Source of the DNA: Clostridiaceae bacterium
GTDB taxonomy: Bacteria > Bacillota > Clostridia > Acetivibrionales > DUMB01
Direction: 5' to 3'
Length of the DNA: 64,000 nucleotides
NCBI GenBank assembly: GCA_012840085.1
Contig: DUMB01000006.1
Coordinates: 1 to 64,000 of the forward strand
Below the pieces are notes generated by a model, which was given only the letters and a program-made list of their open reading frames with translations, was not told the DNA's origin and searched no databases. Of this stretch, positions 9,932 to 25,605 are shown in pieces. Positions within the stretch are counted from its first letter, which is position 1; the number at the start of each line of letters is the position of its first letter. Position numbers and translations under genes: made by a program.

Positions 9932-10093
9932 CTATCTTTTGATTAATCGTGAATCGGGAGTATCCAAAAATACAAAGATGTCAATTTCTTTTGCATCATA
10001 ATTTTGAGTCTGTTCAAACGGGAAAATCAAGAGATATGTAACTATAACGATAACAAATATCCAAAAAACTATGATCATTCTCTTCATTTTCAT
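9932..10093 (-). CDS. 53-residue membrane peptide, translationally coupled to the response regulator
   Basis: A small open frame of 53 codons. Its ATG overlaps the TGA of the response regulator (ATGA), and its stop lies 11 bases before the binding-protein start, so it fits exactly into the operon. The peptide starts with basic residues (MKMKR), has one membrane helix (about residues 7-25, rich in I, V and F), and ends in a short hydrophilic tail with EIDIFVFLDTPDSR. It might be the stub of a degraded binding protein (N-terminal anchor only) or a true small membrane partner of the kinase. I do not recognise a family. Confidence 0.6.
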   Translation of the reverse strand: MKMKRMIIVFWIFVIVIVTYLLIFPFEQTQNYDAKEIDIFVFLDTPDSRLIKR

Positions 10094-10860
10094 ATATCTC
10101 CGTCTTCCTTTCTATTTTTATTACGGAATTCCGAAGGTGTTTCCGAACACATGCGCTTGAATGCCCGAATAAACTGGCGGTAGTTATTAAAGCCCGTTTT
10201 TTCTGCGATTGTTTCTAAAGAATAATCAGTATATAACAAAAACTGAGTAGCTTTTTCAATACGGACGCCGGTCAAGTAATTTGAAAAAGTCATTCCCATG
10301 CTTTTTGAAAACAAATCAGACAGATACGATGGATTAAGGTGAAATTTTTCTGCAACAGTACCAAGGGTCAGATCGTCCTGATAATAGTCATTTATATAAT
10401 CAACTATTTCAGATATATACGTATTAACTTTCTTATCGTTAAGTGCCGTACTTATATTTGCAGGTATTTGGGTATTTGAATTCTTACTGTTGAGCTGGCT
10501 TACAGCACGAAGCAATACGCTTTCAATATTGCTTTTATCTATGGGTTTTAACAAATAATCAAAAACATTAAGTCTTAGTGCCTGCTGTGCGTAAGAAAAG
10601 ACATCATATCCTGACAGAATAATAGTGAGCACATCGGGATTCACAAGTTTATACCGTCTGATTAATTCTAAACCATCCATTCCAGGCATTCTCAAATCAG
10701 TGATAATAATATCAGGTTTTATTTCCTGGGCAAGACTATATGCTTCAATTCCATCCGTCGCAGTAGAAGCTATTTCGATGAAGAAGTTAGACCAGTCTAC
10801 GCAGCGTAAAAGACTGTTAATGACCCATTTTTCATCGTCTACAATTAATGCTTTATACAT
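10090..10860 (-). CDS. YesN-like response regulator (receiver plus AraC helix-turn-helix)
   Basis: 256 residues. The receiver domain (1-120) has the acidic pair DD at 8-9, the phospho-acceptor Asp55 in DIIITDLRMPG, and the conserved Lys in YLLKPID. The C-terminal AraC domain (about 150-250) carries HLNPSYLSDLFSKSMG and NNYRQFIRAFKRM. This is the compact YesN form without the long middle region. The gene overlaps the kinase gene by eight bases. It most likely controls the divergent transport operon starting at 13127, because that is the nearest unregulated uptake system. Confidence 0.9.
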   Translation of the reverse strand: MYKALIVDDEKWVINSLLRCVDWSNFFIEIASTATDGIEAYSLAQEIKPDIIITDLRMPGMDGLELIRRYKLVNPDVLTIILSGYDVFSYAQQALRLNVFDYLLKPIDKSNIESVLLRAVSQLNSKNSNTQIPANISTALNDKKVNTYISEIVDYINDYYQDDLTLGTVAEKFHLNPSYLSDLFSKSMGMTFSNYLTGVRIEKATQFLLYTDYSLETIAEKTGFNNYRQFIRAFKRMCSETPSEFRNKNRKEDGDI

Positions 10861-12751
10861 TATAGCCCTCCTCCTTTTCTTCCGAGTAATTCGGATTAAT
10901 AGAATCTATATATACAGTCACGGTTGTGCCACGATTAGGAGATGAGTTGATCATCAAGCCGCTTTTTTTGCCATATCGCAATTGCAAACGGGTATGTATG
11001 TTCATAAGAGCGAAACCACGATTACTGTGTACACGTGTATTTTTCAACAACAATGGATCGTTATCCTGTTGTTCGATGAATCCGTTAATACCACTTTTCA
11101 GGCTGTCCTGGATAATTTTCAGGTCTTCCTCTGAGATGCCCACACCATTATCGGTAATAGTTATTGAAAGCCCTCCGTTAGGCTTGATGGCACCGGAAAT
11201 TATTATCACTCCGCTTCCCAGTTTTGTTTCAAGTCCGTGATATATGGAATTCTCAACCAAAGGTTGAATTATAAATTTTAGAATTTTACAGTCCAAAACT
11301 TTGGGAGGCAGATCAAAAATAACTTTAAACCGGTTGTTAAAGCGCATTTGCTGTATCTTAACATAATAGCGTACGCTGGCAATTTCTTCCCGAACAGTGA
11401 CAAGTTCATTTTCAAAATGCAAAGAATATTGCAGTATTTTGCTCAGATAATGTGTTGCATCGTATATGCCGGAGAAATTTTCTTCTTCGGACATGCTTTT
11501 AATCATTTCTAGAGTATTATATAAAAAATGAGGATTTATCTTACTTTGCAAGGCGCTTAACTCAGCTTCTTTTCTTTTTATCTGTGCGGCATATTCTCTG
11601 TTTATTAATGTGTTTATACGCTGAGACATGGAAGAGAAGCTTTTCGTAAGTATACCAATTTCATTGTTTGTGTCATATACCGGAATTACATTTAAAGATG
11701 TTCTGCCAAATTCTTCAACTGCATTGGTGAGCTTCCTTATAGGATATAACAGTTGTTCGGAATACATAACTGTAACAAGAATAAGTGAAATTACGCTGAA
11801 TACCAGTATTGCTGTGGAAATCCGCTTTGCTTTGTTAATAGGCGCAAAAAGTTTGTTTAAATGAAGCAAATCAACAATTTTATAGCCACTATAACCGGAT
11901 GTTGTAGAAAATATGGCAATAGGCATGCCATTAATTGAGTTATTAATATAGTATCCTTCATTTCGTGCCAGGACAGCATTTGCAAAGAAACTGTTGATTA
12001 TTACTTTGCCAATTTTATCCCTGTCTGAGCAATAAAACACTCTGCCGCTGTTATCAGTTATAATTGTAGTATTATGGTTGTTTGAAGACAATTCAACTAG
12101 GGATTCAAATTTATCCACCTCAATGGAAAACAGGACTACACCCAAAAATTCACCTGAAAGATAATCAGTAATTCCTTTTATATATGTAAGTGTCTGAGCA
12201 TCGTAATCAACATAGCCTTCAAGCACGTTTTCGGCAAACAGCATTCCTTCATTGGGTGTCTTTTTGGCAGCAATGTACCACAGCTGCTCTTTGTAATTGT
12301 TAAGAGGCAGCAAGACATTTCCTCTTACTATTTTATAGTTGTTGCCGTTATCACAAAAGAGATAGATGCCAAGGATTTCCTGATGCGTTATCATTATCTG
12401 CTGCATATTGCTTCTTGCTAAAGTATAATTCTGTACTGCCTGGTTTTTGTTATTATAGTCAGACGGTCCGTTGGAAATATTAAAAAGTGTTTTATCCAGA
12501 GTGTATTCCAGACTTATATTATATAATTCACTCAGATAGTTATCCAGGGAAGAAGATATCTGGGATATGGAACGAAATTCGGAGGTGATAAGCTGATCAT
12601 TCAAATAATTTATGTATGAGCTGATTGTAAAAGCAAATATTAATGTAACCGGAATTACAATTACAATTATATTAAACAATATTAACTTGTATTCCAAACT
12701 TAAGTTACGGGAAAAGGTCCTTGCTTTTTCTATTATCCGCTTTATCACCAT
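10853..12751 (-). CDS. YesM-like sensor histidine kinase
   Basis: 632 residues: membrane helix at about 22-45, an extracellular dCache-like sensor (about 50-305), second helix at about 310-330, a HAMP linker (331-384), then the His-kinase domain. His408 lies in LQSKINPHFLYNTLEM, the hallmark of the LytS/YesM group, and the ATPase part has QPLVENSIYHGLE and DNGVGISEED. It is the first gene of the minus-strand operon and overlaps its response regulator. The sensor probably works with the anchored binding protein encoded downstream. Kinases of this type usually control sugar or oligosaccharide uptake. Confidence 0.92.
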   Translation of the reverse strand: MVIKRIIEKARTFSRNLSLEYKLILFNIIVIVIPVTLIFAFTISSYINYLNDQLITSEFRSISQISSSLDNYLSELYNISLEYTLDKTLFNISNGPSDYNNKNQAVQNYTLARSNMQQIMITHQEILGIYLFCDNGNNYKIVRGNVLLPLNNYKEQLWYIAAKKTPNEGMLFAENVLEGYVDYDAQTLTYIKGITDYLSGEFLGVVLFSIEVDKFESLVELSSNNHNTTIITDNSGRVFYCSDRDKIGKVIINSFFANAVLARNEGYYINNSINGMPIAIFSTTSGYSGYKIVDLLHLNKLFAPINKAKRISTAILVFSVISLILVTVMYSEQLLYPIRKLTNAVEEFGRTSLNVIPVYDTNNEIGILTKSFSSMSQRINTLINREYAAQIKRKEAELSALQSKINPHFLYNTLEMIKSMSEEENFSGIYDATHYLSKILQYSLHFENELVTVREEIASVRYYVKIQQMRFNNRFKVIFDLPPKVLDCKILKFIIQPLVENSIYHGLETKLGSGVIIISGAIKPNGGLSITITDNGVGISEEDLKIIQDSLKSGINGFIEQQDNDPLLLKNTRVHSNRGFALMNIHTRLQLRYGKKSGLMINSSPNRGTTVTVYIDSINPNYSEEKEEGYNV

Positions 12752-13126: not shown

Positions 13127-14200
13127 ATGAAAAAGTTTCTTGCACTTCTGTTAATTGCAATCCTGGCAATTTCAATGACAGCTTGTTCAGGACAATCAAA
13201 AACTTCGACATCAGATAAAGGTAATGGGTCAAATTCTTCTTCGTCAAAAAGCGGTGATACTGCTTCTTCCGGAGAAGATGATAAGATTATTATTGGATAT
13301 GCAGCCCTTGACGATTCTCAGGAGCATCTGATACCTGTACGTGAGAATATCAAAGAAGTTGCCAAAAGATATCCAAATGTTGAGGTTATTTGTGTTGACA
13401 ATGCGGGTGACGGGGCAACTGCAGTTTCTAATGTTGACAATTTGTTACTGCAGGGTATAGATGTTTTAGCTGAGTTTAACCTTGACGCGTCTGTTAATCC
13501 TGTAATTTATGAAAAGTGCAAAGCAGCCGGTGTACCGGTTATGGCTATTGATATTCCTGTAGGTGACGCACCGTTTATGGGCGCAAATAATAGAGAAGCG
13601 GGCTTGTTATGCGGTTATGCCTTGGGAGACCTCGCCAATAAGGAATGGGGAGGAAAAGTTGACTTAATACTTATCCTCAATACCCCTGAAGGCGGAGATG
13701 TTGTTATGACTCGTATGAATGCTGTTGTTGACGGCATCAAGGAGAAAATACCCGGACTTGATACAACTAATTTAGTTGTTGAGGTTGACTATAAAGATGA
13801 TGCTATTTTAGCTCAGCAGTTGACAGCGGATGTATTGAACTCTCATCCGGATGCACGCCATATTCTTATCGGTTCAATAAATGATATAGGTGCTCAAGGT
13901 GCATTTGCAGCTATTGAAGCGGCCAAACGCCAGGATCATTGCTTTATCGTCAACCATGGTATGTCAGTTCAGACCCGTGAAAACTTATATAAGCAGATCA
14001 ATACCGGACAACTCAATTGCTGGCGCGGAGGTGTAGCATACTTCCTGGAGAGGTATGGAGAATATATAGTACCTGGTTGTATTAAACTGGCAAAAGGTGA
14101 AGAAGTAAATCCTGAAGATTTATTGATGGACCATGTATACATAGACGCTTCTAATATTGAAGAATGGTATCCTCAGGCAGAGTGGAGCCAGGCTAAATAA
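13127..14200 (+). CDS. Sugar-type (CUT2/RbsB-like) ABC transporter binding lipoprotein
   Basis: 357 residues with a lipoprotein signal peptide; the lipobox Cys is residue 20 in ISMTACSG. A Ser/Gly-rich spacer (21-50) leads to a type I periplasmic-binding fold, starting IIIGYAALDD, with NVDNLLLQGIDVLAEFN and IGSINDIGAQGAFAAIEAA typical of ribose/galactose-type binding proteins. It delivers a small ligand to the ATPase and permease encoded at 15425-17897. The ligand is not known; the neighbours suggest a compound that needs a metallo-hydrolase and two M24-fold enzymes. The gene is the first of the operon and is followed by a stable hairpin. Confidence 0.88.
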   Translation: MKKFLALLLIAILAISMTACSGQSKTSTSDKGNGSNSSSSKSGDTASSGEDDKIIIGYAALDDSQEHLIPVRENIKEVAKRYPNVEVICVDNAGDGATAVSNVDNLLLQGIDVLAEFNLDASVNPVIYEKCKAAGVPVMAIDIPVGDAPFMGANNREAGLLCGYALGDLANKEWGGKVDLILILNTPEGGDVVMTRMNAVVDGIKEKIPGLDTTNLVVEVDYKDDAILAQQLTADVLNSHPDARHILIGSINDIGAQGAFAAIEAAKRQDHCFIVNHGMSVQTRENLYKQINTGQLNCWRGGVAYFLERYGEYIVPGCIKLAKGEEVNPEDLLMDHVYIDASNIEEWYPQAEWSQAK

Positions 14201-14250
14201 TTAATCTTGCTTGATAGTATTATTTTAATCAATAGAATTATCTAAGTTGG

Positions 14251-14297
14251 TAGTATTATGTCCGATACCGGTCAAATGTGCATCGGACATAATACTA
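14251..14297 (+). terminator. Strong intercistronic stem-loop after the binding-protein gene
   Basis: A perfect 16-bp stem (14251-14266 with 14282-14297) closes a 15-base loop. There is no T-run, and the same operon continues on the other side. Such a hairpin usually protects the upstream message or partly stops transcription, so that more binding protein is made than the membrane parts. Confidence 0.65.
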
Positions 14298-14340
14298 TCA
14301 TTCCAAAACAAACTTTCGTTTTAATATGGAGGGATTGTAA

Positions 14341-15387
14341 ATGCCTGTAATGACGGTAACCGGAAAGGTAGACGCAAGTGACCTTGGCATAACTGCGCCT
14401 CATGAACACATTTTTATTGACATGGAAGTTTTTTTTTCACCACCTGCTGAAATTGGTGCAAAGAATATAGCATATGGCCCTGTTACAATTGAGAAATTGG
14501 GTATTTTAAAAAGAAATCCATTTGCAGTGCTTGATAATCTTAAGATGATGGATGAAGAAACACAGCTTTCCGAACTGAACTATTTTAAAGCTGCAGGCGG
14601 CAGGACCGTAGTTGATGCTTCAACAGTTGGTTTGGGTAGGGATCCTGAACTGCTTGCAATGGTAGCAGCCAAATCCGGTCTTAATATAATAGCCGGGGCA
14701 GGCTTTTATGTAGATGGCGCACAGACAGACGAGATTCGGGCGCTGACAATTGAAGAAATGGAAAAGCAAATTGTTCAGGAAATAGAACAGGGAATAGGGC
14801 ATACAAGAATTCGTGCAGGAATTATTGGAGAAATAGGCATATCACATGTTATGTACCCCTTTGAGAAGAAATCCCTCATTGCTGCGTGCAGAGCCCAAAT
14901 TCGCACCGGAGCCCCTCTGATGATACATATTAATCCATGGAGCACACAGGGGCTGGAAGCGATGAAAATAGTAGATGAACACAACGTGCCCCATGAAAAA
15001 GTCGTAATTTGCCACAGTGATGTGGAAAACCGGGAAGATTATATATTTAAACTTCTTGATATGGGCGTATATATTGAGTTTGATAATTTCGGGAAAGAAA
15101 TGTTCACAGACAGGTGGGATATAAAACCCGGCTCAGGAAGATTTGTTACAGACTGGGAAAGAGTGCTGCTGGTAAAAAAAATTGTAGACAGGGGATATGC
15201 AAAACAGCTGCTTCTTTCCACTGATGTATGCCTGAAGTCACTATTGCACGCATATGGTGGTTGGGGTTATGACCACATATTGACTAATATTGTTCCGATG
15301 CTGGACGAAGTTGGGGTGTCCTCTGCCGACATTGAGCAGATTCTTGTAAAAAATCCGGCTTGCTGGCTGGATTACGATGTCCGTTAA
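14341..15387 (+). CDS. Phosphotriesterase-family (amidohydrolase-fold) hydrolase
   Basis: 348 residues. Metal ligands of the PTE family are visible: His21 and His23 in PHEHIF, His196 in LMIHINPW, His225 in VICHSD and Asp295 in LLSTDVC. The bridging residue, a carboxylated Lys in true phosphotriesterase, is Glu164 in GIIGEIG, as in the E. coli PHP protein. Family members act as lactonases, carboxylesterases or phosphotriesterases on small molecules. The natural substrate cannot be named. It lies inside an uptake operon, between the binding protein and the ATPase, so it probably opens or cleaves the imported compound in the cytoplasm. No signal peptide is present. Confidence 0.88.
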   Translation: MPVMTVTGKVDASDLGITAPHEHIFIDMEVFFSPPAEIGAKNIAYGPVTIEKLGILKRNPFAVLDNLKMMDEETQLSELNYFKAAGGRTVVDASTVGLGRDPELLAMVAAKSGLNIIAGAGFYVDGAQTDEIRALTIEEMEKQIVQEIEQGIGHTRIRAGIIGEIGISHVMYPFEKKSLIAACRAQIRTGAPLMIHINPWSTQGLEAMKIVDEHNVPHEKVVICHSDVENREDYIFKLLDMGVYIEFDNFGKEMFTDRWDIKPGSGRFVTDWERVLLVKKIVDRGYAKQLLLSTDVCLKSLLHAYGGWGYDHILTNIVPMLDEVGVSSADIEQILVKNPACWLDYDVR

Positions 15388-15424
15388 AAATTCAAATTAT
15401 TTAAGAAGTAGGTGAATTTCTCCA

Positions 15425-16918
15425 GTGGGTAATATTTTACTGAATATGAAAGGTATAACAAAAAGGTTCCCAGGCGTACTTGCACTGGATAATGTGGATC
15501 TCACCTTGTACGAAGGAGAAGTGCTGGCACTTGTAGGTGAGAACGGTGCCGGGAAATCAACTCTTTTAAAAATTCTATCCGGTGCTTACACCAAGGACGA
15601 AGGGGTTATCGAATATCAGGGAAAGAAGTTATCTCAATATACTCCTCAGGAAGCCATTGATATGGGAATATCAATTATATATCAGGAACTTGACAATTAT
15701 CAGACACTGACGGTTGCTGAAAATATTCTTGTAAACCAACTTCCAAGAAAATTTAACGGTAGAGGTCCCATTGACTGGCCTGAAACATATCGCAGAGCCG
15801 AAAGCATTATTAAACAAATAACTGATGAAGTTGATGTAAAAGCATTTATGAATACTCTTTCCACATCACAGCAGCAGTTGGTTGAAATTGCAAAAGCAAT
15901 GAGCCATAACATGAAAATACTGGTAATGGACGAACCTACATCCGCTTTAACACAGGTGGAAACAAAAAGGTTGCTGAAACTGGTACGTGAACTGGCTGCA
16001 AAAGGTATAGGTATTATATATATATCTCACAGGATGGATGAAATTTTTGAGGTCAGCGACCGGATACAGGTTATGAGAGACGGCAAAAGCATTACGGTAC
16101 TAAAAACATCAGAAACAAATCAGGACGAGATAATCAATGCCATGGTTGGAAGAGAACTGAACGAGATGTATCCGCATAAAAAAATGGAAAGAGGAAAGCC
16201 TGTCCTGGAGGTTGAAGGCCTGTCAGCCGGAAAAGCTAGAAATATCAGTTTTACTTTGCACGAGGGAGAGATAGTCGGCTTGTTCGGGCTGATGGGAGCC
16301 GGACGCTCTGATTTGGCAAGAGCACTCTTCGGAGATTTACATGTAAAAGAAGGTACCATAAAAGTATGTGGCAGGAAAGTATCATACCATACACCGGCAG
16401 AAGCAATAAAAAACAATATTGCTTATGTTCCGGGAGAGCGCAAGAACGAAGGACTAATGCTCATACATACGGTTTTGTTTAATATCACCATATCAATTGT
16501 CAATCGTTTGTTTAAAAGATTAAAAATTAATAAAAAAGAGGAGCGTGCTGTTGGCGATAAGTGGATAGAGACACTGAATATACGTACGCCCTCAGCCGAC
16601 ACTGTGATACAGGAACTTTCCGGCGGTAATCAGCAGAAAGTAGTTATAGCAAAATGGCTTGAGACAAACCCTAAAATATTAATTCTCAATGAACCTACCC
16701 GTGGCATTGATGTAGGAGCTAAAGCTGAAATATACAATATCATGGAAGAATTATGTGAGAAGGGTATCGGTATTATCATGATTTCTTCTGAAATGCAGGA
16801 AGTCATATCAATGTCTGACAGAATAATCGTTATGTGTGAAGGCCGTTTAACCGGTGAAGTAGCCGTGGAAGAAGCGACTCAAGAAAATTTAATGAGACTT
16901 GCTGTTGGAGGTATATAA
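15425..16918 (+). CDS. CUT2-type sugar ABC transporter ATPase (double nucleotide-binding domain, RbsA/MglA-like)
   Basis: 497 residues with a GTG start. Two ATPase halves are fused. The first has GENGAGKST, a degenerate signature LSTSQQQLVEIAKAM and VMDEPTSAL. The second lacks a normal Walker A (GLMGAGRSD) but has LSGGNQQKV and ILNEPTRGIDVG. This pattern is normal for RbsA/MglA/XylG proteins. It energises uptake through the permease encoded next. The ligand class for this family is mostly monosaccharides, but purine nucleosides, autoinducer-2 and other small molecules are also known. Confidence 0.93.
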   Translation: MGNILLNMKGITKRFPGVLALDNVDLTLYEGEVLALVGENGAGKSTLLKILSGAYTKDEGVIEYQGKKLSQYTPQEAIDMGISIIYQELDNYQTLTVAENILVNQLPRKFNGRGPIDWPETYRRAESIIKQITDEVDVKAFMNTLSTSQQQLVEIAKAMSHNMKILVMDEPTSALTQVETKRLLKLVRELAAKGIGIIYISHRMDEIFEVSDRIQVMRDGKSITVLKTSETNQDEIINAMVGRELNEMYPHKKMERGKPVLEVEGLSAGKARNISFTLHEGEIVGLFGLMGAGRSDLARALFGDLHVKEGTIKVCGRKVSYHTPAEAIKNNIAYVPGERKNEGLMLIHTVLFNITISIVNRLFKRLKINKKEERAVGDKWIETLNIRTPSADTVIQELSGGNQQKVVIAKWLETNPKILILNEPTRGIDVGAKAEIYNIMEELCEKGIGIIMISSEMQEVISMSDRIIVMCEGRLTGEVAVEEATQENLMRLAVGGI

Positions 16919-16919
16919 C

Positions 16920-17897
16920 ATGAGTTTTGTCAAAAGTATTAGTAGTTCAACAAAAAACTTGCAAAGAAAAGTGGGCAGTGAGCTTACCATTTTACTGGCT
17001 TATATATTGATTATTCTGGCCTTTTCTATATTGTCACCTCACTTTTTTTCAATGGACAACTTTTTAAATATTGGCATATATTCAGCTGTAACAGGTATTA
17101 CAGCAACAACTACAACTTTGGCGCTGGTAGCCGGATGTATAGATATCTCTGTCGGTGGTACTATGGCACTGACCGGAATGGTTGCTTCACTTATGCTAAA
17201 GGCAGGATATTCTACATTTTCTTCTGTATTAGTTGCGTTTATTTTAGGTACTGTTTGCGGAGCAATTAACGGCCTCGCGGTCTCAAAGGGTAAGATAAAT
17301 CCCATGATTACGACTCTTGCCACAATGTCTATATTCAGAGGTATCGCATATCTGTCCAATAATGGAATATCTATTGTTGTAACGAATGAAAGCTTCAAAT
17401 GGCTCGGGCGAGGGTATGTCGGATTTATACCGTTCCTGGTTTTAGTAATGTTGCTTTGCTTCGTACTGGCATGGTATTTAGCCAAATATACTGCCTTTGG
17501 ACGAAAGGTATACGCTACCGGTTCAAATATGAGGGCTAGTTATCTTTCTGGTATTAACACTGATAATGTAGTTTTCACCGTATACCTGTTAAACGGTATG
17601 CTAGCTGGAATATCAGGGATTTTAATGGCGGCTCAGACAGGTGCCGGACTTCCTACAGCCGGAACGGGCTATGAAATGACAATAATATCTGCCTGCATTT
17701 TAGGGGGTACTTCTCTGAATGGCGGTAAAGGCAGCTTATGGGGCTCATTAATTGGTGTGCTTATGCTGACTACAATTTCTAACGGTCTGACAATGCTCGA
17801 AGTTCAGACATTCTGGCAACAGATAATAAAAGGATGCATACTTTTGGCAGCTGTATTTATAGACGTTCTCCGTTCAGGGGTGTATAAAAAGGCATAA
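16920..17897 (+). CDS. CUT2-type ABC transporter permease (RbsC-like)
   Basis: 325 residues with about nine or ten membrane helices. Typical RbsC blocks are GGCIDISVGG-like LVAGCIDISVGGTMALTG and the C-terminal GGTSLNGGKGSLWGSLIG. The start at 16920 is chosen because GGAGG lies 7 bases upstream; an earlier TTG would include that ribosome site. It begins one base after the ATPase stop. As only one permease gene is present, it probably forms a homodimer. Confidence 0.92.
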   Translation: MSFVKSISSSTKNLQRKVGSELTILLAYILIILAFSILSPHFFSMDNFLNIGIYSAVTGITATTTTLALVAGCIDISVGGTMALTGMVASLMLKAGYSTFSSVLVAFILGTVCGAINGLAVSKGKINPMITTLATMSIFRGIAYLSNNGISIVVTNESFKWLGRGYVGFIPFLVLVMLLCFVLAWYLAKYTAFGRKVYATGSNMRASYLSGINTDNVVFTVYLLNGMLAGISGILMAAQTGAGLPTAGTGYEMTIISACILGGTSLNGGKGSLWGSLIGVLMLTTISNGLTMLEVQTFWQQIIKGCILLAAVFIDVLRSGVYKKA

Positions 17898-17934
17898 TTA
17901 ATATGTACAAACAATATAAAAGGGGGAATATAAT

Positions 17935-19110
17935 ATGACTAGACCAATTATCCCAGATAGTGAATTTAAAATACGTGCGAGGAACATCCAGGAATTAATG
18001 AAACAAAAAGGAATTGATATGCTGCTTGCATACGGTAATGAGGCTGAGCCGCAGTTTGTACGCTACTTCTGTGATTATTGGCCATCATTCGAAACCGCTG
18101 GGGTGCTGTTTGCCCAGGATGGAGAGCCATTACTGCTTATAGGACCTGAAAGTATGACATATGCGTCAGACCGAAGCCGTATCCGCAATATACGTAGATT
18201 ATCAGCTTTCAGGGAATCATCAAATCCTGAATATCCAGGGCATAAGCTTGATACTTTCAGGGATGTAATCGGAGAATTACTGGATGGCAAACCGTTGAAG
18301 AATTTTGCCATTGCAGGCTACAATCTCATCGGTAAAGTGACATTTGATGCATTAGTAGATGGCCTCAAGTCATTTGGAGATGTATCAATTGTAAGCGGAG
18401 ACGACCTGGTAATGCAATTGAGAATGTATAAATCTGAAAATGAGATTCAATGCTTGCGTTATGCAGGTGAAATTACTCGGAAGACTTTTGACTATGTCAT
18501 TGAGAATATTCGTCCTGGCATGACTGAAAGCCAGGTGCGTGGACTGGCTTGTGCCAAGCTCTTTGAATTAGGCGCAGAAAGTGAATCCTACCCAATATGG
18601 GTGCTTGCCGGAAAGGGAGGAAACCAGGCTATTAGCAGAGCAAGACATAAAGTGATAGAGAAGAATGAACTTGTGCATCTTCAAATTGGTGCAAGGTACG
18701 AAGGTTATGCATCAACTATAGGAAGGCCCGTCATTCTAGGTAATCCTGAGCAGTGGATGTTAGATGCGATCAAAGCAGGTTATGAAGCACATGAAGCAAT
18801 AATAGGGCAGCTGTATGACGGAAATAATGCAGGTAATGTTGCCAATATATATTATGAAACAATGCGCAAAAATAACCATATTGATTGGTTGCTTTACGGA
18901 CCATGCCATGCAACCGGCTTAATGGAAGGAGAGCCTCCATGGATTGAGGAAGGTTCTGATTATATTTTGCGCAATAACATGACTTATGCTGTAGATATTT
19001 TTATGGGAAATAAAGACGGATATGGATTCAGAATAGAAGACAGTGTGCGCGTAGGTATTGGCAAGGCTGAAAACATGACCAATTATCCGCGGGAGATATT
19101 CATATTATAA
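17935..19110 (+). CDS. M24 (creatinase/prolidase fold) protein lacking the usual metal ligands
   Basis: 391 residues with the two-domain creatinase/prolidase layout: an N-terminal domain (1-165) and a pita-bread C-terminal domain (170-385). At the places where M24 peptidases have their metal ligands (Asp, Asp, His, Glu, Glu), this protein has Gln250, Thr261, His325, Asp354 and Glu368. The two Asp ligands are therefore gone, as they also are in creatinase, a metal-free C-N hydrolase. Calling it a Xaa-Pro peptidase would be misleading. It shares an operon with an importer, a PTE-like hydrolase and a second protein with the same changes. GGGGG upstream supports the start. Confidence 0.85.
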   Translation: MTRPIIPDSEFKIRARNIQELMKQKGIDMLLAYGNEAEPQFVRYFCDYWPSFETAGVLFAQDGEPLLLIGPESMTYASDRSRIRNIRRLSAFRESSNPEYPGHKLDTFRDVIGELLDGKPLKNFAIAGYNLIGKVTFDALVDGLKSFGDVSIVSGDDLVMQLRMYKSENEIQCLRYAGEITRKTFDYVIENIRPGMTESQVRGLACAKLFELGAESESYPIWVLAGKGGNQAISRARHKVIEKNELVHLQIGARYEGYASTIGRPVILGNPEQWMLDAIKAGYEAHEAIIGQLYDGNNAGNVANIYYETMRKNNHIDWLLYGPCHATGLMEGEPPWIEEGSDYILRNNMTYAVDIFMGNKDGYGFRIEDSVRVGIGKAENMTNYPREIFIL

Positions 19111-19220
19111 AATTTTTAAATTTATTAATTTATCAAAGTCGTTTAAATGGTTTTATTGCATGTGTACAGCTGTGAACAGTTCTCAATAAAATAGCGAAAT
19201 ATGGTAATGGGAGTGATTCT

Positions 19221-19592
19221 ATGAACGGCAAGAAGAATTGGTATATTGTAGACGGATACAGGCCTCCTGTAAATCCAGGCGAAGCTACGGATTATGAGGG
19301 TCACGAGTGTATAATGATACTTAACTGTAATGATCAGGATGCCAATATATTTATTGATGTTTATTTTACAGACCGCCCGCCAGTTGAAGGAATTCCTTTT
19401 GTTGCTCCTGCCAAACGTGTAACTGCTTTCAGAAGTAATGACAGAAAAGTGTTTGGCGACCTGTACTTGGACGTAGGTGTGCAGTACTCCCTACGTATAC
19501 GAAGTGATGTAGATGTAGTAGTTCAATATGGGAGATTAGATGTTAATCAGCCTAACATGGCTTATCTTGCAACTTTGGGGTATGGACAATAA
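19221..19592 (+). CDS. Sensory-rhodopsin-transducer-like (ASRT) small protein
   Basis: 123 residues, soluble, no signal peptide. The opening NWYIVDGYRPP, the middle HECIMILNCNDQDANIFIDVYF and the end with YSLRIRSDVDVVVQYGRLDV match the family named after the Anabaena sensory rhodopsin transducer, a beta-sandwich tetramer. Most bacteria with this gene have no rhodopsin, and the family has been proposed to bind small ligands such as carbohydrates. It sits between the two M24-fold genes, which fits a ligand-binding or accessory role in the pathway rather than light sensing. Its function here is unknown. Confidence 0.8.
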   Translation: MNGKKNWYIVDGYRPPVNPGEATDYEGHECIMILNCNDQDANIFIDVYFTDRPPVEGIPFVAPAKRVTAFRSNDRKVFGDLYLDVGVQYSLRIRSDVDVVVQYGRLDVNQPNMAYLATLGYGQ

Positions 19593-19627
19593 CATCTATA
19601 TCAATAACTAGTAAAGGGGTAGAATAT

Positions 19628-20809
19628 ATGGATAAAATCAAAATTTCAAAGGAAGAATTTGAACAAAGAATTCAAAAAATAAGAGAGCATATGGGGAAAA
19701 TGGGTCTGGATGCCATATTTGTCTATGGTGATGAATACCGTAAAGAATCCCTGAGGTATGTGTCTAATTTCTGGCCGATTTTTGAACGTGGAGCCATGCT
19801 GATGGGAATTGACACAGAACCTATTGTTTTATGCGCCCCTGAAGGACAAAAGTTAGCGGAGGAAATGAGTGTATGGCCCGATATTCGCCTTGTTCCTGAT
19901 TTTCTGTGTGTTACCGTGGCAGACGAGATAGATTATCCCTTAGCTAACTATACCAACTTTAAGGCTTTATCAAAAGAACTGAACGGCTCAAGTAAAATAT
20001 CAAAGCTTGGCATTGTTGGAATGGATGCGATGCCGGCGGCATTACTGAACACAATTGGCGAAGCTTTCGCTTGTGATATAGTGGATGCCAATTCTATTCT
20101 GTATGAATTACGCAAAGTAAAAAGCCCCAATGAAATAGCTTGTCTTAGGGAAGCAGCCCGTATTGCAGATTTGGCATTCAAAAAAATGATGGAATCTGAC
20201 CTGATAGGAAAAACTGAGCGTTATGCTGCAGGCATTGCTGAAGGAGAGGCAAGAAAGCTGGGAGCTGAAGCTGTGATATTTACAGTTTTTGGTTCTGGCA
20301 AAAGGTCTGATACAATAGTAGGACGTCCGACCGACAAAATAATAAATGACGGCGATATGATTATGTGCGCACTGGCCATTCAGTACGAAGGCTATGTGGC
20401 AACATGCGAAGTACCGTTTGCTGTGGGCAACATGAGTGATGAGACCCGCAGAGTAATTGATGTTTTGATTCGGGCTTCCGATGCAGGATTGCCTTATCTT
20501 AAAGCCGGTGTTCCTATGAAGAAGTTTGTTTCTGCTGTAAGAGATTTCTTCCGTAAAGAAGGTCTGGCTGAATATGATGTATACCCGCCACTGCATGGTA
20601 TAGGCTGTGCAGAAGCCGAGTCGCCTTATCCTGACGAGAATACGGAAGATGTGTTTACTGTCGGAATGACTGTAAACACAGATATAAGCTTATTCGGCCT
20701 GCCCGGAGGATCCAACCGTATTGAGGAAGGTTTCGTTATTACAGAAGACGGAGCGGAAACATTGGCACCTTTTGTACGTAAATATTGTGAGGAATGGTTG
20801 TCTAAATAA
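19628..20809 (+). CDS. Second M24 (creatinase/prolidase fold) protein lacking the usual metal ligands
   Basis: 393 residues, related to the protein at 17935 but clearly diverged. Its metal-site positions read Ala248, Thr259, His323 (in PPLHGIG), Asp352 and Glu366 instead of Asp, Asp, His, Glu, Glu. Both proteins share the NFWPIFERGAML / DYWPSFETAGVL block near residue 50, so they look like an old duplication. They may form a heteromeric enzyme or act on successive intermediates. It is the last gene of the operon and is followed by a good terminator. Metal-independent chemistry, as in creatinase, is the working idea. Confidence 0.85.
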   Translation: MDKIKISKEEFEQRIQKIREHMGKMGLDAIFVYGDEYRKESLRYVSNFWPIFERGAMLMGIDTEPIVLCAPEGQKLAEEMSVWPDIRLVPDFLCVTVADEIDYPLANYTNFKALSKELNGSSKISKLGIVGMDAMPAALLNTIGEAFACDIVDANSILYELRKVKSPNEIACLREAARIADLAFKKMMESDLIGKTERYAAGIAEGEARKLGAEAVIFTVFGSGKRSDTIVGRPTDKIINDGDMIMCALAIQYEGYVATCEVPFAVGNMSDETRRVIDVLIRASDAGLPYLKAGVPMKKFVSAVRDFFRKEGLAEYDVYPPLHGIGCAEAESPYPDENTEDVFTVGMTVNTDISLFGLPGGSNRIEEGFVITEDGAETLAPFVRKYCEEWLSK

Positions 20810-20869
20810 ATGGGTGCCTGATGTCTGAATAAATGAGTGTCTGAATAAGGTATAGAAGCAGAACTGAAT

Positions 20870-20924
20870 GGGACGGAAATTGTGTGCTTTTTCTAAAAGT
20901 TTCATGATTTCTGTCCCGTTTTTA
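20870..20924 (+). terminator. Terminator of the ABC/PTE/M24 operon
   Basis: GGGACGGAAAT at 20870-20880 pairs with ATTTCTGTCCC at 20907-20917 (one G-T pair), followed by GTTTTT. Just upstream, TGTCTGAATAAATG-like words repeat about three times after the stop codon. Confidence 0.8.
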
Positions 20925-24495: not shown

Positions 24496-25605
24496 TCAGA
24501 AAAATAGTGGTACAAGAGCCAGCAGCAGGCCGCCTGCAACAATTGAACCAAGTTGTCCTGCCACATTGGCACTGATAGACTGCATTAATATAAAGTTTGT
24601 AGGATCCTCACTTTTTGCTATCCTCTGGATAACCCTGGCTGACATGGGAAATGCAGATATTCCTGCAGCACCTACCATAGGATTAATCTTCTTCTTGAGG
24701 AAGAGGTTCAGGAGCTTGGCAAAAAGGACTCCACCTGCTGTATCAAATATAAATGCAACAAGTCCCATCGCCATAATAATAAGGGTATCAACTTGAAGGA
24801 ACTTGTCTGCCTGCATTGTTGAACCTATTGTAATACCCAGAAGCAAAGTTACAAGGTTTGCAAGCTCGTTCTGAGCGGATACTGAAAGTCTTTCGAGAAC
24901 GCCGCTTTCTCTTATAAGATTTCCGAACATGAGAAGACCTACAAGTGCAACACTTATTGGAGCAATCAAACCAGCTATGATTGTAACCGCAATTGGGAAA
25001 AGAATTTTTACAATTTTAGGTACATTGACTTGTTTGTATTCCATCCTTATCAATCTTTCGTTGCGGGTTGTGAGCAGTTTGATAACAGGGGGCTGAATTA
25101 TAGGAACAAGAGACATATATGAATAAGCAGCAACAGAGATTGGCGCTACAAGCTTGTCTGCAAACTGAAGTGCAACATATATGGAAGTCGGGCCGTCAGC
25201 AGCACCTATAATACCGATTGATGCAGCTTCCTTAAGATTATATCCAAACAGCAGCGCAACCATCATAGTTGAAAAGATACCAAACTGTGCAGCAGCCCCA
25301 AAGAAAAGCATTGTCGGGTTTTGAAGCAACGGAGTGAAATCAATCATGGCGCCTACAGCAATAAATATTAAGCAAGGGAAAAGTTCAGTACGTATTCCTG
25401 CATTATATAATATTTCCAAAATACCATGTTCACCTATTGCCGAAGAAAAGGGAATGTTGCATAGAATAGCACCGAAACCAATAGGAAGAAGAAGCATTGG
25501 TTCATATTCCTTGGCGATTGCAAGATAAATTAAAACCCCCCCAATTACGAACATAACCAGATTTCCGAGTTGAAGATTAAGTATACCGTTAAATAACTCT
25601 TGCAT
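24496..25605 (-). CDS. Sodium-translocating decarboxylase beta subunit (OadB/GcdB family)
   Basis: 369 residues with about nine or ten membrane helices and the family blocks LIFIAVGAMIDFTPLL, GIIGAADGPTSIYVAL and MVGAAGISAFPMSARV. The beta subunit couples decarboxylation of a carboxybiotin carrier to sodium export. The Asp in GAADGPTS is the expected sodium-linked residue. Which acid is decarboxylated (oxaloacetate, methylmalonyl-CoA or glutaconyl-CoA) cannot be told, because no alpha subunit or biotin carrier lies in the window. A tiny gamma-like gene follows. Confidence 0.9.
   Translation of the reverse strand: MQELFNGILNLQLGNLVMFVIGGVLIYLAIAKEYEPMLLLPIGFGAILCNIPFSSAIGEHGILEILYNAGIRTELFPCLIFIAVGAMIDFTPLLQNPTMLFFGAAAQFGIFSTMMVALLFGYNLKEAASIGIIGAADGPTSIYVALQFADKLVAPISVAAYSYMSLVPIIQPPVIKLLTTRNERLIRMEYKQVNVPKIVKILFPIAVTIIAGLIAPISVALVGLLMFGNLIRESGVLERLSVSAQNELANLVTLLLGITIGSTMQADKFLQVDTLIIMAMGLVAFIFDTAGGVLFAKLLNLFLKKKINPMVGAAGISAFPMSARVIQRIAKSEDPTNFILMQSISANVAGQLGSIVAGGLLLALVPLFF

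Follow-up and report, generated by a model that had tools for sequence, protein, structure and literature searches.

M24-fold proteins A and B are encoded within a seven-gene, same-strand unit (13127-20809) of the window, by which we mean the whole 64,000-nucleotide stretch analysed (Clostridiaceae bacterium, GenBank assembly GCA_012840085.1, contig DUMB01000006.1, positions 1 to 64,000 of the forward strand). In order, the unit encodes a binding lipoprotein, a phosphotriesterase-family (PTE) hydrolase, an RbsA-type ATPase, an RbsC-type permease, protein A, a protein of the Anabaena sensory rhodopsin transducer (ASRT) family, and protein B (Table 1). The nearest solved relatives of the PTE hydrolase are 3k2g and 9efa (phosphotriesterase-related protein; phmmer 4e-60 and 7e-58, respectively). 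The operon starts downstream of a divergent response regulator/histidine kinase pair, which, from its position, is probably the regulator of the operon; motA/motB and ThrE genes lie beyond its end. The probable terminator following the gene for B was read by eye: terminators were not above chance in a promoter/terminator scan, and the loop of this hairpin is too long for that scan. Elsewhere in the window, the minus strand carries a gene for a lone OAD_beta protein (Na+-transporting decarboxylase beta subunit) at 24496-25605. The host genome is 4.09 Mb in length, behaves in searches like one of the class Clostridia, and also encodes canonical M24 proteins with the ligands D, D, and H.

Table 1. 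Genes and features of the operon encoding A and B, with the divergent two-component system
Feature	Coordinates	Strand	Evidence
Two-component system, divergent: AraC-type response regulator and dCache histidine kinase	10090..12751	-	Pfam
ABC transporter substrate-binding lipoprotein (Peripla_BP_4, sugar type)	13127..14200	+	Pfam 88 bits; galactose-binding protein is a weak phmmer match
Phosphotriesterase-family (PTE) hydrolase	14341..15387	+	Pfam PF02126 247.6 bits
RbsA-type sugar ABC ATPase	15425..16918	+	Top NCBIfam match ribose RbsA, 561 bits, under model cut-off 745
RbsC/AraH-type sugar ABC permease	16899..17897	+	Pfam BPD_transp_2 141.8 bits
M24-fold protein A, 391 aa	17935..19110	+	Pfam Peptidase_M24 102.7 bits (cut-off 23) and Creatinase_N
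ASRT family protein, 123 aa	19221..19592	+	Pfam PF07100 113.6 bits (cut-off 25)
M24-fold protein B, 393 aa	19628..20809	+	Pfam Peptidase_M24 98.6 bits (cut-off 23) and Creatinase_N
Probable operon terminator	20869..20921 (approx.)	+	GGGACGGAAAT...ATTTCTGTCCC hairpin then GTTTTT; read by eye

As judged from AlphaFold models (pLDDT 90.9 for A and 89.0 for B), both proteins belong to the M24 (pita-bread) fold superfamily. The structural matches, to prolidases, creatinase, and ectoine hydrolase, are full-length, with Z scores of 34-40 across 336-370 residues. The A model scores 39.8 with prolidase 5cde, 39.6 with the ectoine hydrolase DoeA (6yo9), and 38.7 with creatinase 7yto; for the B model, the corresponding scores are 38.0 (5cde), 37.0 (6yo9), and 37.1 (7yto). 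As these values are about tied, likeness of fold picks none of peptidase, creatinase, or DoeA. These full-length matches, along with the sequence alignments, place the columns of the lost aspartates where an earlier sequence-only reading of this DNA had placed them by eye.

Residue columns were assigned from phmmer alignments to solved prolidases (2zsg, 4rgz, and 3q6d) and from a 150-row alignment that takes in canonical M24 proteins of the same genomes. Canonical rows from these and related genomes carry D, D, H, E, and E at the five ligand columns; A carries Q250, T261, H325, D354, and E368, and B carries A248, T259, H323, D352, and E366. Together with the ORF list, these alignments confirm both reading frames and every residue named in the sequence-only reading, including its central observation that the same two metal-binding Asp are missing from both proteins (Gln250/Ala248 and Thr261/Thr259). 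The loss of peptidase machinery extends well past these two positions. In the column of the catalytic His (MetAP His79, creatinase His232), A has I233 and B has V231, and the second His, which precedes the E-x-P motif, has given way to G332 and A330, respectively; both proton-shuttling His of M24 peptidases are thus gone from A and B, including the one that creatinase uses. An extra Glu has been gained (E331 in A, E329 in B) that is invariant in the family and that M24 peptidases lack. The pocket set retained by the family, in the numbering of A, consists of His325, Asp/Cys354, Glu368, Glu333, Arg366, and Tyr258, in addition to the new Glu331. In M24 peptidases, metal 1 is coordinated by four ligands: the second Asp, the His, and the fourth and fifth ligands. 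Three of these four metal-site-1 ligands (His, Asp/Cys, and Glu) are kept, which is more than in creatinase or ectoine hydrolase. The proposal that A and B are metal-free is only one possibility, as the invariant His/Asp-or-Cys/Glu set of metal site 1 could hold one metal.

Relatives of A and B were gathered from whole-genome searches and from one scan of genome contigs (358 relatives, 80 kept). The contig-scan relatives come from Clostridia, Spirochaetes, Chloroflexi, Armatimonadetes, Zipacnadia, WS1, Kiritimatiellia, Verrucomicrobia, Caldatribacterium, Desantisbacteria, and one archaeal metagenome-assembled genome (MAG); most are from MAGs, and single odd placements may therefore be contamination. 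None of the 103 aligned family members has Asp at site 1 (Q, N, G, A, C, S, or T) or at site 2 (S, T, A, V, G, or N). The site His is present in 103/103, Glu331 and Glu333 likewise, and the last Glu (102/102) and Arg366 wherever a row has a letter in that column. Position 354 is Asp in 85 members and Cys in 18, and the residue in place of the catalytic His is I or V or, in rare cases, L or M. The N-domain residues E36, F52, E53, P71, E72, and Y100 are jointly conserved and are missing from canonical rows. Such strict conservation, with exchange only between Asp and Cys at 354, argues against decay. This exchange would fit a metal ligand, a nucleophile, or an acid/base residue, and so does not choose among them. 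Cys at 354 occurs in a subset of A proteins (e.g. loci L100-L104, L106-L109, L111-L113, and L115), often with B in the operon.

In a FastTree phylogeny of 140 M24 proteins, the 113 members that lack the two Asp and carry the His/Glu331 signature all fall into one clade (SH 0.998), which divides into A (85 members) and B (28 members); the window holds one of each. An IQ-TREE C20 analysis of 57 rows recovers the family (100/99), A (100/99), and B (92/81), and places as sister to the family (100/99) a small group that keeps both Asp and has Lys as fourth ligand. DoeA rows form a separate branch (99/97) and creatinase another. The trees thus indicate that the Asp pair was lost once, ahead of the A/B split, and that the two genes in the window inherit this one event; the idea of two independent losses within one operon was rejected in view of the single clade. 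A lineage shared with creatinase is disfavoured, although the penalty for forcing creatinase into one group with the family, 12.5 log-likelihood units (AU p = 0.057), does not amount to a firm rejection. Since creatinase and DoeA lie on other branches, the M24 fold seems, from these sequences, to have lost the ligands more than once. The parallel with creatinase drawn in the sequence-only reading is sound for the two missing Asp (Asn and Ala in creatinase), but creatinase sits on a separate branch of the tree, keeps His232, and is without the last Glu.

The sequence-only reading also took A and B as a possible pair. The two are encoded together in 16 loci, often adjacently (L073, L074, L101-L103, and L106-L108), but many A genes accompany a PTE gene without B, and some genomes hold A alone or B alone. 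An obligate A-B heterodimer was rejected as a general rule, as most PTE-linked A genes are without B in the fetched stretch.

The genomic context of the family is carbohydrate catabolism. Among 107 family genes in the stretches retrieved, RbsA, RbsC, and sugar-binding protein genes each share the directon of 33, PTE genes that of 24, and ASRT genes that of 17; these counts are lower bounds, as many contigs are short. Same-strand ABC sugar genes adjoin about a third of members. Other neighbours encode CUT1 permeases, glycosidase-like proteins, a polysaccharide-deacetylase-like protein, FGGY sugar kinases, and Zn-dependent dehydrogenases close to polyol and inosose dehydrogenases. Creatininase-family proteins recur beside the M24 gene (L048:10343-11077, L142:12310-13050, and others), one of them nearest to IolN, a 3-dehydro-scyllo-inosose hydrolase; these neighbours give a hint of cyclitol or keto-sugar substrates. 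A 266-aa protein with no Pfam or PDB match (L099:11207-12007; its cluster occurs in 12 loci) adjoins PTE and A.

The family is also linked to ASRT. Among 291 Clostridia-class genomes, ASRT is present in 27 of the 34 that bear the family, versus 6.5 expected (Fisher p 2e-16, a value that ignores shared descent). In the same genomes, 28/49 family genes lie no more than 300 bp from a same-strand ASRT gene, and 27/71 ASRT genes have a family M24 gene within 300 bp. The ASRT protein of the window reads GHECIMILN against the ligand motif SHExhChhN, keeping the His and having Met at the usual Cys, and is predicted to be a small-molecule- or sugar-binding protein. ASRT proteins have been proposed to bind sugars, and their occurrence in monosaccharide ABC operons was noted (De Souza 2009, PMC2739507); by the terms searched, no M24, peptidase, or PTE gene is named in that text. 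Linkage between M24 and ASRT genes appears to be new. A literature search for this family, for M24 with ASRT or PTE, and for the catalytic residues of creatinase found no described function for the family.

Taken together, these data favour a reading in which A and B are non-peptidase M24-fold enzymes of carbohydrate-type catabolism, to which we assign a probability of roughly 0.7, with metal-bound and metal-free versions counted together. A compound would be imported via the RbsABC-type transporter, and the PTE-family hydrolase, A, and B would process this carbohydrate-like compound, with ASRT probably sensing or binding a ligand of the pathway. In creatinase, the dimer shapes the active site. 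The same holds for DddP (PMC4108388). By analogy, A and B may form dimers in which one chain closes its N-domain (E36, F52-E53, P71-E72, and Y100) over the pita-bread pocket of the other. Catalysis, dimer geometry, and substrate class are what we infer here: the retained half-site (His325, Asp/Cys354, and Glu368) and the new Glu331 would carry out the reaction, in which a molecule derived from a sugar or polyol is probably hydrolysed or undergoes elimination. The half-site could be either a single-metal site (site 1 minus the bridging Asp, perhaps weaker) or a set of bare acid/base residues, the latter because DoeA and creatinase demonstrate that the fold works without metal.

The metal-bound version of this reading, in which His325, Asp/Cys354, and Glu368 would hold a single metal with Ser/Thr261 or Gln/Asn250 as neutral ligands, is a serious candidate at somewhat under even odds. 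The three ligands are invariant apart from the change of Asp to Cys at the fourth position, both of which are possible metal ligands, but creatinase has two of the three columns as His and Glu without a metal, and a nucleophile or acid/base residue would fit the Asp/Cys exchange too. We consider it unlikely that A and B are metal-free C-N hydrolases working like creatinase, as the sequence-only reading had proposed. Creatinase has lost the same two Asp and is matched by fold as well as prolidase is, and Asp354 of A falls in the column of creatinase Glu358. The neighbouring PTE hydrolase is near the phosphotriesterase-related protein, and PTER is an N-acetyltaurine hydrolase (PMC11374699), so an amide-type pathway step is conceivable. 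Against this, creatinase His232 is missing from all family members, the last Glu that creatinase lost is kept, creatinase branches separately, and the setting is one of carbohydrate uptake, with signs of nitrogen-compound pathways only in a minority of loci.

More speculative, and in our estimate decidedly unlikely, is an undescribed enzyme class in which a sugar-derived substrate would be turned over at a single His/Asp-or-Cys/Glu metal site, A and B would be paired or hetero-assembled, and ASRT would be an allosteric partner; if true, the paired A/B and ASRT allostery would give the ASRT family a general bacterial role. It is improbable that the proteins are catalytically dead, serving as binding, scaffold, or regulatory proteins or as sensors together with ASRT. 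SPT16 and Ebp1 are non-catalytic proteins of M24 fold, and the loss of both bridging Asp and both catalytic His, with a predicted sensor gene closely linked, would suit such a role; however, the pocket residues do not vary among members that span about ten phylum-level groups and are about 30% identical, and many loci hold a family gene and PTE without ASRT. Finally, that A and B are ordinary Xaa-Pro peptidases whose metal site has shifted, as the fold, automatic annotation, and M20-type peptidase genes close to a few members might suggest, is very improbable and was rightly doubted at the outset, as two-metal chemistry relies on two bridging Asp and two catalytic His that are all gone, every NCBIfam peptidase model falls far short of its cut-off (the top ones score 65 and 94 bits versus 630), and the context is sugar uptake. 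The probability left over by these readings goes to other kinds of chemistry.

A and B represent a new, unnamed subfamily, old and widespread, whose fold is known, whose members are very probably not peptidases, and whose genomic setting is clear. The family shares its two-domain, full-length fold with aminopeptidase P/prolidase (MEROPS M24B; 2zsg, 3q6d, and 5cde) at about 19-26% identity, as well as the His, the last Glu, Arg366, Tyr258, and the E-x-P Glu. It differs in having lost both bridging Asp as well as the catalytic and second His, and in its Asp/Cys fourth ligand, extra Glu331, N-domain motif, and sugar operon. The label Xaa-Pro peptidase, which databases will give to members from Clostridia of the gut and rumen and from Spirochaetes, Chloroflexi, Armatimonadetes, and others, is very probably wrong. 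Creatinase (1chm, 7yto, and 1kp0) resembles the family in its fold, in the lost Asp pair, in keeping the His324 column, and in the acidic residue of the Glu358 column; with respect to His232 and the last Glu the two are reversed, and the substrate of creatinase is creatine. Ectoine hydrolase DoeA/EutD (6twk and 6yo9) also matches in fold (Z 36-40) and has likewise lost metal ligands, but in its case all five (the columns hold E, P, Y, M, and T), with the catalytic His kept; the DoeA/EutD model TIGR02993 (NCBIfam) gives 65.7 bits for A and 34.2 for B, both under the cut-off of 613.

The unnamed sister group (Leisingera WP_264214299 and Priestia WP_241097379) shares E36 and occurs in sugar or sugar-acid operons, but keeps both Asp and has Lys at the fourth ligand. 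Its genes at L145:8001-9158 and L179:4995-6167 lie beside galactarate genes and a TRAP transporter (Leisingera) and beside sugar ABC genes (Priestia). The DMSP lyase DddP (4b28) uses the same fold for a non-peptidase reaction with its full two-metal site kept. The family of A and B, as non-peptidases in which half of the metal site is invariant, would mark another exit of the M24 fold from peptide chemistry. The 123-aa protein of the operon is itself a member of the ASRT/ASRAH family, which is known mainly from one cyanobacterial rhodopsin, and the linkage between M24 and ASRT genes offers a route to the ASRT ligand.
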